DNA of 64,000 nt from Pyrinomonadaceae bacterium (lineage in GTDB: Bacteria; Acidobacteriota; Blastocatellia; Pyrinomonadales; Pyrinomonadaceae): the NCBI GenBank assembly GCA_036277115.1, contig DASUNM010000023.1:248001-312000 (forward strand), read 5' to 3'. The notes below the pieces were generated by a model. It saw only the letters and a program-made list of their open reading frames with translations, made no database searches and was not told the DNA's origin. Below, in pieces: positions 28,261-57,788 of this stretch; the first letter of the stretch is position 1, and each line of letters starts with the position of its first letter. Both the position numbers and the translations under genes were made by a program.

Positions 28261-28291
28261 GGCGCGATACTTTAGCATAACGTTGGAGGAT

Positions 28292-28337
28292 GAGACTTAT
28301 GGGTCCCATATGTCCTATAAGACCTATAGGTCCCATC
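28292..28337. repeat. 9-bp word array with inverted ends
   Basis: Words GTCCCATAT, GTCCTATAA, GACCTATAG, GTCCCATCC repeat every nine bases. The two ends are inverse of each other (13 of 16 positions). It lies between the cca stop codon (28344) and the start of the acyl-CoA dehydrogenase gene. Confidence 0.7.
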
Positions 28338-28343
28338 CCGTAT

Positions 28344-29735: not shown

Positions 29736-29780
29736 TCGTTGAGTATAAAGGCGGGGCAACGCCCGCCTCTAAAGAGATTG

Positions 29781-29873
29781 TTCCCTCTCCCTCTGGGAGA
29801 GGGTTAGGGCGAGGGCATAGGACGTGTACACAGACCCTCATCCCCAACCCTTCTCCCAAAGGGAGAAGGGAGA
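29781..29873. repeat. Second copy of the CCCTCTCCC inverted repeat
   Basis: 29784-29816 (CCCTCTCCCTCTGGGAGAGG core) faces 29835-29871 (CTTCTCCCAAAGGGAGAAG core). It belongs to the same family as 622-754. It begins immediately after the stop codon of the leftward gene at 29875. Confidence 0.75.
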
Positions 29874-29874
29874 G

Positions 29875-30628: not shown

Positions 30629-32206
30629 ATGAACGGCAATCTCTTCGCAGAAATCTTTAAGCCTGAGCGTGACGCGCACGTCGCGGTCATGTTTGAGCAG
30701 CGCGAAATCACGTACAGCGAACTACGCACACTTACCCTTGAGACGGCTGAGAAACTAAACGCTCTGGGTCTGCGCCGAGGCGAACGCGTAGCGATCCTGC
30801 TGAACGACTCTCCGGAATTTATCGCTTCTTTCGTCGCAGTTATCTCTCTCGGGGCTATCGCCGTGCCCATCAATATGGCGCTGCGAAAGAGCGAGCAGAC
30901 GATCATTTTGAAGGATTGCGGCGCGCGCGTCGTCATTGTCGAGAATCAAGCGGCGCCGTCACTGTTTGGTGATGAGAACGAAACAGTCGATCTGAAACTG
31001 CTGGTCGTGACACGTGACGGCGAAACCGGCCTTTCCCCTTCAAACATTTTCGTTATGCGGTTCGACGACGCCGAACGGCGACCACTTCCCAACGACTTTT
31101 CCAGCAGTACGACGCCTGACGCAGATGCTTTCATTCTCTACACCTCCGGCAGTACCGGCGAACCGAAAGGCGCCGTGCACAGTCAATCCGACATCTTCTA
31201 CACGAACGAAACGTTCTGCCAGGAGGTTTTGCAACTGCGCGAAGGCGACCGCTTGTTTTCGTCTTCACGTCTGCCGTTCGCGTACGGCCTGGGCAACGCG
31301 TTCACGTTTCCCCTCCTGAACGGATTCACGACGATCTTGTGTCGTGAGAAACCCACCCCGGAAGTTGTCTCGCGTATCTTCCGCGACTATCGGCCGACAA
31401 TCTTCTTTGGGGTGCCGGTCGTGTATCGCATGCTGCTCGAACATCACCGAAGTGTTGCACTCATCGACTGCTCCAGCCTGCGCTTGTGTGTTTCGGCCGG
31501 CGAAGCTTTGCCAGCGCAACTGGGCGAAGACTGGCAGCGAACACTCGGCGTGGAAGTACTCGACGGCATCGGTTCGACGGAAATGCTGCACATGTTCATA
31601 TCGAATCACGCCGGCGAAGCGCGCTACGGCAGCAGTGGGCGGCTCGTGAACGGCTACGACGCAAAACTGATCGATCATGACGGGGCGCCCGTGGCGCCCG
31701 GCGCGGAAGGAAATCTCTGGATCCGTGGCGCGAGCGCGGCGAGTCGATACTGGCAGCGGCCGGAAACTTCGGCGGATACGTTCGTCGAAGGCTGGGCGCG
31801 AACGGGAGATCTGTATCGTCAGGACGCGGATGGATTCTGGTGGCACATGGGCCGGAGCGATGACTGCTTCAAACCGACCGGCCAGTGGGTTTCACCCGTT
31901 GAAGTCGAAGGCGTACTTTTGAAGAGCGACCGGATTCGCGCGGCGGCCGTCGTTGAAGGGCTCGACAAAGACAACTTGTCATGTGTGTGCGCGTTCGTCG
32001 TGCGCGCGCACGAAGACGATGGTGATGAAGTAGTCGAGCAAGCGTTGCGCGCGTTGTGCGAATCCGCACTGCCAAGATTTAAACAGCCGCGGCGCTACAT
32101 CTTTGTTTCAGAACTGCCTTACACTGCGACCGGAAAGGTGCAACGATTTAAATTGCGTGAGCAGCTTAGAAGTCCAATGTCCAAGGTCCAAAGTCCGACG
32201 TCGTGA
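30629..32206 (+). CDS. Acyl-CoA synthetase of the benzoate-CoA ligase type
   Basis: ANL-superfamily enzymes activate a carboxylic acid with ATP, then load it onto CoA. P-loop: YTSGSTGEPKGAVHSQ near residue 170. The motif DGIGSTEMLHMF near 312 is typical of benzoate-CoA ligases. Also visible are RTGDLYRQD near 390 and the C-terminal lysine in TGKVQRFKLRE near 508. Length 525 is normal. The last 12 codons (RSPMSKVQSPTS region) are encoded by a heptamer array, not by family sequence. The thioesterase gene follows 47 bases later. Aromatic acid is the likely substrate, but this is inference. Confidence 0.88.
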   Translation: MNGNLFAEIFKPERDAHVAVMFEQREITYSELRTLTLETAEKLNALGLRRGERVAILLNDSPEFIASFVAVISLGAIAVPINMALRKSEQTIILKDCGARVVIVENQAAPSLFGDENETVDLKLLVVTRDGETGLSPSNIFVMRFDDAERRPLPNDFSSSTTPDADAFILYTSGSTGEPKGAVHSQSDIFYTNETFCQEVLQLREGDRLFSSSRLPFAYGLGNAFTFPLLNGFTTILCREKPTPEVVSRIFRDYRPTIFFGVPVVYRMLLEHHRSVALIDCSSLRLCVSAGEALPAQLGEDWQRTLGVEVLDGIGSTEMLHMFISNHAGEARYGSSGRLVNGYDAKLIDHDGAPVAPGAEGNLWIRGASAASRYWQRPETSADTFVEGWARTGDLYRQDADGFWWHMGRSDDCFKPTGQWVSPVEVEGVLLKSDRIRAAAVVEGLDKDNLSCVCAFVVRAHEDDGDEVVEQALRALCESALPRFKQPRRYIFVSELPYTATGKVQRFKLREQLRSPMSKVQSPTS

Positions 32207-32248
32207 CTCTGAACGGCTTTGGACCTTAGACTTTGGACATTGGACTTT
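32170..32248. repeat. Inverted GTCCAA heptamer arrays spanning a stop codon and a start
   Basis: Left array: AGTCCAA, TGTCCAA, GGTCCAA, AGTCCGA (32170-32197), inside the acyl-CoA ligase coding sequence. Right array: TGGACCT, TAGACTT, TGGACAT, TGGACTT (32219-32246), ending just before the thioesterase ATG. The halves match as a 26-bp inverted repeat with about three mismatches. Confidence 0.85.
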
Positions 32249-32253
32249 GAATT

Positions 32254-32715
32254 ATGGAAAAAAGCATCCAGGAAACTTACGCGCCGAACATGGCGTGTTT
32301 CGGCTGTGGCCCCGCGAATGAGAAAGGTCTGCACATTCGCAGCTTTCCCGAGGGTGATGAAGTGGTCGCCACTTTCAACCCCGATACTTATCAGGAAGCC
32401 TTCCCCGGAATGTTGAGTGGCGGCATCATCGGTACCCTGCTGGACTGTCACTGCAACTGGACGGCGGCATACCACCTGATGAAGCAAGCCGGAATCGATC
32501 GTCCGCCGTGCACAGTGACTGCTGATTACACGATCACTTTGAAGCGGCCGACGCCGACAGACCAAGCGGTCGAATTAAAAGCGCGGGTGGTCGAATCAAA
32601 AGAAGATCGCGCAATAGTTGAAGGTGAGCTAATCGCGCACGGTAAGGTAACGGCTACTTGTCGGGGGACTTTCGTGGCGGTCAAGCCGGGTCATCCCGCA
32701 TATCACAGGTGGTGA
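32254..32715 (+). CDS. PaaI-like hot-dog thioesterase
   Basis: The 153-residue product has the hot-dog fold pattern with CFGCGPANEKGLHIR near the start and GMLSGGIIGTLLDCH near 52, the segment that holds the catalytic region in acyl-CoA thioesterases of the PaaI/YbgC type. No ribosome site precedes the ATG, because the leader is a heptamer array. The gene follows the acyl-CoA ligase and may hydrolyse stray CoA esters from it. Its stop codon touches that of the convergent thioesterase gene with no base between. Confidence 0.82.
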   Translation: MEKSIQETYAPNMACFGCGPANEKGLHIRSFPEGDEVVATFNPDTYQEAFPGMLSGGIIGTLLDCHCNWTAAYHLMKQAGIDRPPCTVTADYTITLKRPTPTDQAVELKARVVESKEDRAIVEGELIAHGKVTATCRGTFVAVKPGHPAYHRW

Positions 32716-46566: not shown

Positions 46567-46570
46567 TTTC

Positions 46571-46591
46571 ACTCATCACTCATCACTCATC
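46571..46591. repeat. ACTCATC heptamers overlapping the sigma factor stop codon
   Basis: Three perfect ACTCATC units. The sigma factor stop codon (reverse strand, 46583-46585) and its last codons (Asn-Ser-Asp-Glu) lie inside the array. Confidence 0.75.
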
Positions 46592-47164
46592 ACTGTTCTT
46601 AAGTTCATGATTCAGCCAAGCCTTGGCCATACGTAATTCCCGCTGCACCGTAGCGCGTGAGACGCCGAGCGCTTCAGCCACTTCTTCATTGCTCAGCCCG
46701 CCGAAGAAATGCAGTTCGACGATTTCGCTCTTCCTTTGATCAAGGGTCGCGAGTTGGCTGAGCGCCTCATCGAGCGCCAGCAGGTCCGAAGCCGGCTTGC
46801 ATGAAACCTCCAGCGCGTCATCGAGCGAAACTTTCGGTCCGCCCTCGCGCTTGGCTCGATGCTGGGCTCTTGCATGATCGACCAGCATGCGCCGCATCAG
46901 CCGCGCCGCCACCGCGAAGAAGTGCGCGCGGTCCTGCCAGGAAACCTTCATGTCCACCAGCCGCAGGTAGGCTTCATTCACCAGCGCCGTCGCTTGCAGC
47001 GTGTGTTCAGGCCGTTCCGCGCGCATGTAGTGCTGCGCCAAACGCCGCAGCTCGTCGTACACCACGGGCATCAGCGCATCCAGCGCTTGTTGGCTGCCGC
47101 CGCGCCACTCAAGCAGCAGTTGGGTGAGATTCGTTAGCGATGGTGAAGACACTGATCGGCTCAC
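46583..47164 (-). CDS. ECF-type RNA polymerase sigma factor
   Basis: The 193-residue protein has sigma region 2 (ALMPVVYDELRRLAQHYM near 30, and LVNEAYLRLVD near 65). Region 4 ends with VSRATVQRELRMAKAWL, the DNA-recognition helix near 165-185. It is of the acidobacterial TIGR02999 type, in which a DELRRLA motif and VDHARAQ are typical. A GTG is used as start. No anti-sigma factor gene adjoins it, so control may be through the receptor kinase or elsewhere. The last codons are shared with a heptamer array. Confidence 0.9.
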   Translation of the reverse strand: MSRSVSSPSLTNLTQLLLEWRGGSQQALDALMPVVYDELRRLAQHYMRAERPEHTLQATALVNEAYLRLVDMKVSWQDRAHFFAVAARLMRRMLVDHARAQHRAKREGGPKVSLDDALEVSCKPASDLLALDEALSQLATLDQRKSEIVELHFFGGLSNEEVAEALGVSRATVQRELRMAKAWLNHELKNSDE

Positions 47165-55430: not shown

Positions 55431-55500
55431 ATCAGAGGTCAGAGATCAGATGTCAGAGATCAGACGTCAGACATCAGAGGTCAGAGGTCAGAGGTCAGAA
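55431..55500. repeat. Ten in-phase [AG]TCAGA[N] heptamers
   Basis: Ten 7-bp units in perfect phase, ATCAGAG or GTCAGAN. The inverse array is at 55570-55663. Confidence 0.92.
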
Positions 55501-55569
55501 AGCCGACGCCAGCATCAGAGCGCTGGAAATGTTTAATCGTCAAGGTAAAGAGTTGGTCGCGCGCCCCAG

Positions 55570-55663
55570 TCTGATCTGACGTCTGACATCTGATCTCTGA
55601 CCTCTGACCTCTGATGTCTGACTTCTGACCTCTGATGTCTGACGTCTGATCTCTGACCTCTGT
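55570..55663. repeat. Inverse array of TCTGA heptamers before tRNA-Ser(GGA)
   Basis: Two TCTGA words, then twelve in-phase 7-bp units [NN]TCTGA. Inverse of 55431-55500, with a 69-base spacer. It ends six bases before the tRNA 3' end. Confidence 0.92.
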
Positions 55664-55668
55664 TGTTA

Positions 55669-55756
55669 TGGCGGAAAGGGTGGGATTCGAACCCACGGTA
55701 CGTTGCCGCACACAGCATTTCCAGTGCTGCCAGTTAAGCCACTCCTGCACCTTTCC
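55669..55756 (-). tRNA. tRNA-Ser(GGA)
   Basis: Reverse strand: acceptor GGAAAGG pairs with CCTTTCC, followed by G and an encoded CCA. The anticodon loop is CTGGAAA (anticodon GGA) between GCA and TGC stem ends. A long variable arm (GTGTGCGGCAACGTACC region) identifies tRNA-Ser, and the T-loop GGTTCGAATCC is normal. It lies between heptamer arrays. Confidence 0.95.
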
Positions 55757-55768
55757 CCGGAAACTGAC

Positions 55769-55796
55769 ATCAGATGTCAGAGATCAGAGATCAGAT
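55769..55796. repeat. Four TCAGA heptamers upstream of tRNA-Ser(GGA)
   Basis: ATCAGAT, GTCAGAG, ATCAGAG, ATCAGAT in phase, 12 bases from the tRNA 5' end. An inverse array is at 55844-55878. Confidence 0.85.
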
Positions 55797-55843
55797 TTTG
55801 CTCGACCGACTTCTGATCTCTTGATTGAGCGCTGAAGGTGATT

Positions 55844-55878
55844 TTTCTGACCTCTGATCTCTGACATCTGACTTCTGC
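55844..55878. repeat. Inverse TCTGA heptamers before tRNA-Ser(CGA)
   Basis: About five in-phase units with TCTGA, ending six bases from the 3' end of tRNA-Ser(CGA). Confidence 0.85.
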
Positions 55879-55881
55879 ATT

Positions 55882-55973
<92 letters not shown>

Positions 55974-55989
55974 GCGCGAACAAACAGAT

Positions 55990-56017
55990 GTCAGACGTCA
56001 GAGATCAGATGTCAGAA
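55990..56017. repeat. Four TCAGA heptamers overlapping the tadA stop codon
   Basis: GTCAGAC, GTCAGAG, ATCAGAT, GTCAGAA. The tadA stop codon (56005-56007, reverse strand) lies inside the third unit. Confidence 0.85.
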
Positions 56018-56559
56018 TCTGCCTCGATTAACAAGTTTCCATCTGACGTCGGATGTCTGACTTCCGACCTCTGACGTCTGTCTCTAAAGAACTCTTGCAT
56101 CAGCGCGCGGCACTCTGCTTCCAAAACCCCGCGCACCACTTCGACTCGATGATTCAGATGATCGGAGTCGCAGATCTGGAAGTGGGAATCGACTGCGCCG
56201 GCTCTTTCGTCCGGTGCGCCGTAAACCAACAGCGGCACCCGCGCTTGAATCAAAGCGCCCGCGCACATCGCGCACGGTTCGATCGTCGAGTAAACCACCG
56301 CCTTCGCCAACCGGTAGTTGCCGAATTTCCGCGCGGCTTCACGCAACGCGACAATCTCAGCATGGGCCGTCGGATCGCAATCCGTGCGCGTGCGGTTTCC
56401 GGCAACGGCGTGCAGTTCTCCGTCGATGACGATGCAGGCTCCAATCGGCACCTCGCCGGCGGCTTCTGCTTCGCGCGCCGCCCGAATCGCTTCGCTCATC
56501 CAGCGCTCGTGCGCGGCTCGCGCTTCGACACTCACTTCTTCTGCTACGACTGAAAACAT
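56005..56559 (-). CDS. tadA: tRNA-specific adenosine deaminase
   Basis: TadA converts A34 of tRNA-Arg(ACG) to inosine. The zinc site is complete: HAEI with the catalytic Glu, and PCAMCAGALIQAR. The ATG at 56559 is chosen; a TTG five codons upstream is also in frame. The family core ends at about residue 157 (ALMQEFFRDRR). The next 25 residues are encoded by heptamer repeats and serve no recognisable purpose. The gene adjoins two tRNA-Ser genes, which are not TadA substrates. Enzyme call is secure; the C-terminal tail is an addition. Confidence 0.95.
   Translation of the reverse strand: MFSVVAEEVSVEARAAHERWMSEAIRAAREAEAAGEVPIGACIVIDGELHAVAGNRTRTDCDPTAHAEIVALREAARKFGNYRLAKAVVYSTIEPCAMCAGALIQARVPLLVYGAPDERAGAVDSHFQICDSDHLNHRVEVVRGVLEAECRALMQEFFRDRRQRSEVRHPTSDGNLLIEADSDI
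56041..56082. repeat. Six TCTGAC-type heptamers inside the tadA coding region
   Basis: ATCTGAC, GTCGGAT, GTCTGAC, TTCCGAC, CTCTGAC, GTCTGTC in phase. On the reverse strand they encode the end of TadA. They are the inverse of the array at 55990-56017. Confidence 0.85.
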
Positions 56560-56652
56560 CGCTTCAAACAGCAAGGCCCAACTATACTCATTTCATGTTA
56601 TTATCTTCAAGGCTTCCGCGGACGCTCCCAAACCGCACGTTCTCAGCCTAAG

Positions 56653-57729: not shown

Positions 57730-57788
57730 ACCGCGAGCCGTCAGCAGTCGCGCAGAACTGCTTATCGCTCACTGCTTACTGCACGAAT

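Follow-up and report, generated by a model that had tools for sequence, protein, structure and literature searches.

On the whole, our analysis of the window, by which we mean the whole 64,000-nucleotide stretch of DNA, demonstrates a repeat that is dispersed, has a stereotyped form, fills gene junctions and changes its heptad word between genomes. The array at the junction of an acyl-CoA ligase gene and a thioesterase gene is, on balance, taken here as one copy of such a dispersed DNA-level repeat, with a heptad unit, two facing arrays and an STRR-like character, and a switch that serves this gene pair in particular is improbable. Related soil bacteria often carry arrays of this sort between adjacent genes, with a seven-base word that differs between genomes. 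The junction is made up as follows.

30629..32206, + strand, acyl-CoA ligase, benzoate-CoA-ligase-like (TIGR02262, 456 bits against a cut-off of 375)
32170..32204, + strand, arm 1, heptads GTCCAAn
32204..32206, + strand, ligase stop codon TGA, on the inner side of the array (in the loop if counted from the GTCCA cores)
32205..32212, 8-nt gap that separates the extended arms (22 nt between the heptad cores)
32213..32247, + strand, arm 2, heptads nTTGGAC
32248..32253, + strand, six bases from arm 2 to the start codon, without a Shine-Dalgarno match of at least 4 nt
32254..32715, + strand, hot-dog thioesterase (PF03061 and PF13279, both just above their cut-offs)

The two arms are 35 nt each and 83% complementary, and the tandem unit is 7 nt long (lag 7 at 32168-32253, identity 0.61, p 0.00; TRF period 7), which confirms at 32170-32247 the two facing heptamer runs claimed in an earlier, sequence-only reading. 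Arm 1 is translated as SPMSKVQSPTS, the C-terminal 11 residues of the ligase, plus the last base of the preceding Arg codon; the heptamers thus encode the end of the ligase as that reading had stated, with 11 full residues in place of its 12. The thioesterase ATG at 32254 follows arm 2 after 6 nt. It was also correctly noticed that the thioesterase has no Shine-Dalgarno site, the longest match in its leader being the 3-nt GGA. The statement that all mismatches between the halves are transitions which keep pairing in RNA is wrong, because of the two RNAs that could be made, a transition leaves the pair intact in just one. Heptad pairs one to four have 4 transitions, read as 2 G.U and 2 A.C in the + strand RNA, and the fifth adds one more G.U and one transversion. 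The alignment of the junction array has 27 standard pairs, 3 G.U, 2 A.C and 1 other. An Rfam search of the window gives three matches above the gathering cut-off, the SRP RNA and two tRNAs, and none at the junction.

The dispersal of the repeat is seen already in this genome (G000). When the 141-bp junction is compared by BLAST with its own genome, 26 matches are found. Two classes of heptad are distinguished, the GTCCAAn flavour (class 1) and the TCAGAnr...ynTCTGA flavour (class 2, TCTGAyn on the other strand). With at most one mismatch there are 71 three-heptad class 1 matches, while the reversed-pattern control has 18, and class 1 triples, grouped by hand, fall at 23 genome places, 15 of them with an exact triple. 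The exact four-heptad class 1 pattern occurs 10 times against 1 for the reversed-pattern control, which is not silent in all relatives (up to 11 in G057). Class 2 has 150 three-heptad matches against 0 in the control, and three of its arrays enclose two minus-strand tRNA genes at 55432-56081 of the window:

55432..55663, class 2 array of 10 + 13 heptads, flanking a tRNA gene on one side
55770..55878, class 2 array of 4 + 5 heptads, between the two tRNA genes
55984..56081, class 2 array of 5 + 6 heptads, overlapping the 3' end of the minus-strand ORF 56005-56574

The last array encodes the tail (RRQRSEVRHPTSD...) of ORF 56005-56574, a gene which we take to resemble a tRNA adenosine deaminase. 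Other periodic or palindromic stretches are also present in the window:

57730..57788, gene junction of period 7 (p 0.007), with GAGCAGT-like units named by eye

The GAGCAGT-like word is that of four congeners at accB-accC. Besides, a 9-nt, GTCCCATnn-like unit lies at the gene junction 28279-28343, a perfect tandem TCACTCA heptamer of 3.7 copies at 46569-46594, and other palindromic repeats (CCCTCTCCC...GGGAGAGGG) fill the neighbouring junction 29736-29874.

The arrays share a constant form. Among neighbouring opposite arms in the fetched loci, 32 of 33 run GTCCA...TGGAC and the sole exception has a gap of 199 nt; this count accepted both orientations, while the pair finder used later for placement accepted only the polarity first seen. 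Class 1 arms average 4.1-4.7 heptads, and their loops measure 5-137 nt among the first 33 pairs. In the class 1 heptad positions 1-6 (GTCCAA) are near invariant and position 7 is free, whereas class 2 heptads are free at positions 6 and 7. If the two arms were copied from each other, the free bases should agree, and here the classes part. For class 1, own-arm matches at the variable base are at chance both in G000 (8/34, permuted mean 8.8) and in G014, a genome of another genus (41/90, permuted mean 41.0). Since the free base matches only at the rate of unrelated arms, the arms of class 1 have the look of a single directional word placed in both orientations, not of mutual copies. For class 2, own-arm matches are 47/116 against 37.4 expected, a borderline excess (p 0.050), and arm lengths correlate (rho 0.63, p 0.016), so that class 2 arrays may include copied arms. 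Deviations at the fixed positions which coincide in both arms are few.

To place the arrays relative to genes, genes were called with a home-made caller whose codon usage was trained on the ORFs of the window, so starts are approximate and the distances below depend on the calls; the first 20 regions of G014 were picked for facing listed matches and the 15 later ones are other listed places. There are 41 class 1 pairs, 13 from this genome and 28 from G014: 28 lie between co-directional genes, 5 at convergent junctions and 1 at a divergent one, 6 fall within a predicted gene, and 1 is unassigned. The 14 class 2 pairs comprise 13 co-directional and 1 convergent. Single arms also occur (23 of class 1, 11 and 12 in the two genomes, and 15 of class 2), many of them within predicted genes. 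In 17 of the 28 co-directional class 1 pairs the array spans from stop to start, beginning inside the upstream gene or at most 18 nt past its stop and ending 0-16 nt before the next start. Counted by hand, the upstream stop lies within -1 to +8 nt of arm 1 in 16 of the 28, where an offset of -1 means that the array's initial G serves as the last base of a TAG stop, and in 8 of the 28 it lies inside the array, as at the ligase-thioesterase junction. Overall, the 48 classified arrays are divided into 41 co-directional, 6 convergent and 1 divergent, against 34, 6 and 7 of the window junctions; the convergent share is therefore at baseline (6/48 against 6/47), and divergent junctions are depleted (1/48 against 7/47, p 0.03). 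With any base at the seventh position, class 1 heptads are free of stop codons in all frames of both strands, and two large predicted ORFs (L156:664-2700 and L192:287-1999) run through two or more arrays. Because class 1 heptads are stop-free, separate genes may have been fused in these predictions, or arrays may have been inserted in frame.

Besides ligase-thioesterase, the junctions common to the array-bearing loci of G000 and G014 are accB-accC, the L156/L192 ORF and pheS-pheT. We followed accB-accC and pheS-pheT through the relatives, using mononucleotide shuffles as period tests on junctions of 30-300 nt; both were chosen since the two genomes carry arrays there, and the rates are not a genome average. 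For accB-accC, 30 loci yield 24 junctions, with lag 7 best and significant in 19, lag 9 in 3 and no period in 2, the six other junctions being short or overlapping (G008, G011, G016, G043, G047) or 872 nt long (G048). For pheS-pheT, 30 loci yield 24 adjacent pairs and 20 junctions, with lag 7 in 13, lags 6, 9, 10 and 11 in four and none in three. By comparison, lag 7 at p <= 0.01 is found at 0 of 27 junctions of E. coli K-12 and in 0 of 150 coding pieces of the window, and lag 7 is found at 4 of 38 junctions within the window. The accB-accC junction is 70-100 nt long in 20 of 24 genomes with different sequences, whose words, read by eye, are GTCCAAn in G000 and G014, GAGCrGT-like in four congeners, GCCGATT-like in two genomes and others in other families. 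At pheS-pheT the flavours differ between G000 and G014; a GTCAGTk flavour is read there by eye, and this genome's own junction has a 9-nt unit (L268) like that at 28279-28343. Within pheT itself, both genomes have a GTCCA (class 1) arm in frame at an orthologous place (L158:1172-1190, L231:918-950), which apparently serves as a peptide linker. We tentatively propose, as a possibility which we do not hold to be the probable one, that in Blastocatellia one and the same device, a pair of facing 7-nt-unit arrays from stop to start, repeatedly occupies the space between consecutive genes. Its period, polarity and geometry would stay constant while, at a given junction, each genome has its own seven-letter word, so that the period outweighs the sequence, which would imply a machinery of changing specificity that reads or writes heptads.

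A comparison of the ligase-thioesterase junction with relatives, in line with a check which the sequence-only reading had proposed, covered ten other genomes with both genes in order (L038 and G002 being the same locus): the array is shared by G014 and missing from the other nine, including all other genus members examined. The array of G014 is again of GTCCA type and in the same reading frame, with KLR-KTVQ-SPMSKVQSP against KLR-EQLR-SPMSKVQSP in G000. Other palindromes, read by eye, occupy this junction in G001, G002, G003, G004, G005, L039 and L040, the spacer of G034 has no evident palindrome, and in the congener G006 the two genes overlap as ATGA with AAGGA inside the ligase. Both trees place G000 inside its genus and G014 outside (genus fork 90/93 for the thioesterase, 100/100 for the ligase), and the fourfold sites of the thioesterase differ at 45 of 68 between the two, near saturation. 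From these sequences, the arrays of G000 and G014 at this junction may be either inherited or parallel.

What the array may do to the thioesterase locally is considered here from predicted structure. RNA folding of 32155-32280, the other check which had been proposed, predicts a stable hairpin of -53.8 kcal/mol against a shuffle mean of -28.6 (z -7.2, 0 of 200 shuffles as good), and the opposite strand folds as well (-48.1 kcal/mol, z -6.1). The earlier idea that the hairpin hides the leader of the start codon agrees with the prediction for positions -20 to -9, which are fully paired in it and the most paired among 48 predicted window starts (mean unpaired 0.00, rank 1/48), and does not for -8 to +15, which is open (0.60, with 43 of the 48 starts no more open). 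The thioesterase is ordinary in having no 4-nt Shine-Dalgarno match, since such a match of at least 4 nt is missing for 24 of 48 predicted window genes and for 21 of 30 thioesterase orthologues, this one included. A separate thioesterase promoter with its own ribosome site had been named as the finding that would oppose coupling; consensus scans of 31900-32350 find no promoter-like or terminator-like site, and an intrinsic terminator was rejected after a GC-rich stem with a T run was sought there and 0 were found. Co-translation of ligase and thioesterase is plausible because the genes of G006 overlap as ATGA with AAGGA inside the ligase. If transcribed, the predicted stem would cover the thioesterase leader, and ribosomes ending the ligase would traverse arm 1 and open the stem; from the position of the stem and the translation of arm 1, thioesterase translation probably depends passively on that of the ligase. 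The idea that the hairpin couples or blocks translation is thus partly supported, while the open start region, the commonness of leaders without a 4-nt Shine-Dalgarno match, dispersal, convergent and tRNA sites, the array's presence in just G014 of the ten other genomes and the missing G.U preference described below oppose the array being there for that.

The most serious alternative, which we consider unlikely, is a selected mRNA device, a hairpin that staples a stop to the next start for coupling, reinitiation or message protection, with any stable stem sufficing. It would account for the stop-to-start span of 17 of the 28 co-directional class 1 arrays, for the accB-accC length of 70-100 nt kept in 20 of 24 genomes despite sequence change, and for the strong folds predicted at many accB-accC and pheS-pheT junctions, and overlapping or abutting genes (G006 at ligase-thioesterase, G008 and G011 at accB-accC) would be its alternative state. 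Selection on pairs in mRNA should, however, raise G.U above A.C on the sense strand, and in 81 junctions, aligned for pairing under a strand-symmetric score, G.U occurs 125 times and A.C 121 times (p 0.85), or 46/35 for acc, 24/35 for phe and 17/14, 14/16 and 24/21 for the array sets. Matched changes between arms are likewise at chance in class 1 and borderline in class 2 (p 0.050). The convergent share at baseline, the tRNA genes flanked by arrays, the unmatched variable base of class 1, and the stop inside the array in 8 of 28 pairs, where the ribosome would open the stem, also speak against such a device. As an account of why the array exists, a specific device for coupling by RNA was rejected on the equality of G.U and A.C, the convergent and tRNA sites and the unmatched free base. 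A function that needs just some stable stem may exist alongside the DNA-level repeat, which is favoured because G.U equals A.C and because arrays occur at convergent junctions and beside tRNA genes.

A second alternative, to which we give a rather low probability, is that the heptad is a directional protein-binding site read either way, as by analogy with the omega ribbon-helix-helix protein on WATCACW, so that the hairpin would be a by-product. Six fixed positions and one free position per heptad, constant polarity and some 4-5 heptads per class 1 arm are consistent with it, and pSM19035, according to the relevant part of PMC9499535, requires four or more contiguous 7-bp repeats of mixed orientation. 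The parS of omega (an RHH ParB) is likewise made of contiguous 7-bp directional units, direct and inverted, while it differs in its word WATCACW and its place at plasmid promoters as given in that part (PMC9499535), and the likeness is one of DNA pattern. Against a binding array, flavours coexist in one genome and change between genomes, which would need several proteins or a loose one.

Slightly less probable again is an element of REP type that a Y1 transposase of the RAYT kind would mobilise. Y1_Tnp genes are present in 31 of 36 genomes, with 9 matches in this one, and at accB-accC four of the five Y1-less genomes have no array, only G015 having one; REP/REPIN elements are likewise dispersed intergenic palindromes that abut genes, and in the accessible part of PMC3733652 their ends often supply a TAG stop, as TA|GTCC does here. 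The junction array differs in its tandem heptad build and in having, by eye, no GTAG (or CGTC) tag at the end of a 20-40 nt palindrome in 32160-32260. Moreover, the Y1-less G011, G015 and G016 carry period-7 arrays at pheS-pheT (G015 at accB-accC too), although a Y1 gene may have been missed in these genomes, which are 89-93% complete. A RAYT was rejected as a requirement on the arrays at pheS-pheT in three genomes without a detected Y1 gene. No mechanism of array spread was found. As to range, the class 1 word is local, a stricter pattern being found in 2 of 119 genomes of the phylum and in 0 of 108 outside the class, and class 2 has a broader range, with matches in 22 of 60 relatives. Three of these (G044, G052 and G056), which belong to another family of the class, have many copies, with 28, 64 and 85 four-heptad TCTGA matches. 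Finally, chance or an assembly artefact, which might be thought of for a genome assembled as 30 contigs, can practically be set aside in view of the fold (z -7.2), the dispersed copies exceeding controls and the array of G014 at the same junction.

Cyanobacteria and a small number of other groups are known to carry heptamer repeats, on whose function there is no agreement. For the dispersed DNA-level repeat which we prefer, the closest known kind by analogy is the heptamer STRR hairpin of cyanobacteria, e.g. at hupS-hupL, and the arrays would belong to this heptamer-repeat kind without being STRR proper. In the accessible part of PMC2670836, STRRs usually have 7-bp units, are intergenic and hairpin-capable, and one location is the gap from hupS to hupL; a role in stabilising transcripts or in coupling translation is suggested for them and their function is given as unknown, so the sequence-only idea of coupling has been in print since 2009 for another phylum, Cyanobacteria. 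The present arrays share with these descriptions the 7-nt tandem unit, the dispersal at many intergenic places and the capacity for hairpins. They differ from them in the two facing arms of one polarity, the free seventh base, the frequent stop-to-start span and the word changing per genome. Some copies are in predicted coding sequence, 6 among the 41 pairs of class 1. The host is also different, here Acidobacteriota (nearest named records Blastocatellia / Pyrinomonadaceae). Among the words given in the accessible part of PMC2408588, ttgtcagttgtcagttgtca, present 44 times in the genome of Nostoc PCC 7120, resembles the GTCAGTk flavour at pheS-pheT here, and GTCCAAn differs from the Nostoc words given there. 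The TAACTGA heptamers of Beggiatoaceae, Cyanobacteria and Bacteroidetes are similar in lying near start codons with few canonical ribosome sites, and unlike in comprising, as far as the accessible part of PMC4679880 describes them, 169 direct sets against one indirect, one fixed word and no predicted RNA structure. In the open PMC literature, no description of such arrays in Acidobacteria was found.

Under the preferred reading of a dispersed DNA-level repeat, arrays would become established or grow at the borders of genes, places that tolerate them, and would often supply the stop or the last codons of the upstream gene, and the facing arms would arise from one directional word in both orientations, not from selection of individual RNA pairs. 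The following count against this reading: no mechanism of spread was found; class 2 arms may be paired or copied, with own-arm matches at p 0.050 and correlated lengths; an architecture kept while the sequence changes looks more like function than like passive junk; and G014 has an array at the same junction despite fourfold differences at 45 of 68 sites. A conserved operon junction with constant architecture and a changing word offers a natural series on the purpose of period seven, for which RNA pairing, a DNA-binding protein and a replication process are candidates. For these soil bacteria, predicted proteins gain spurious residues at their C-terminus from the arrays, and the annotation of operons and start codons may be led astray.
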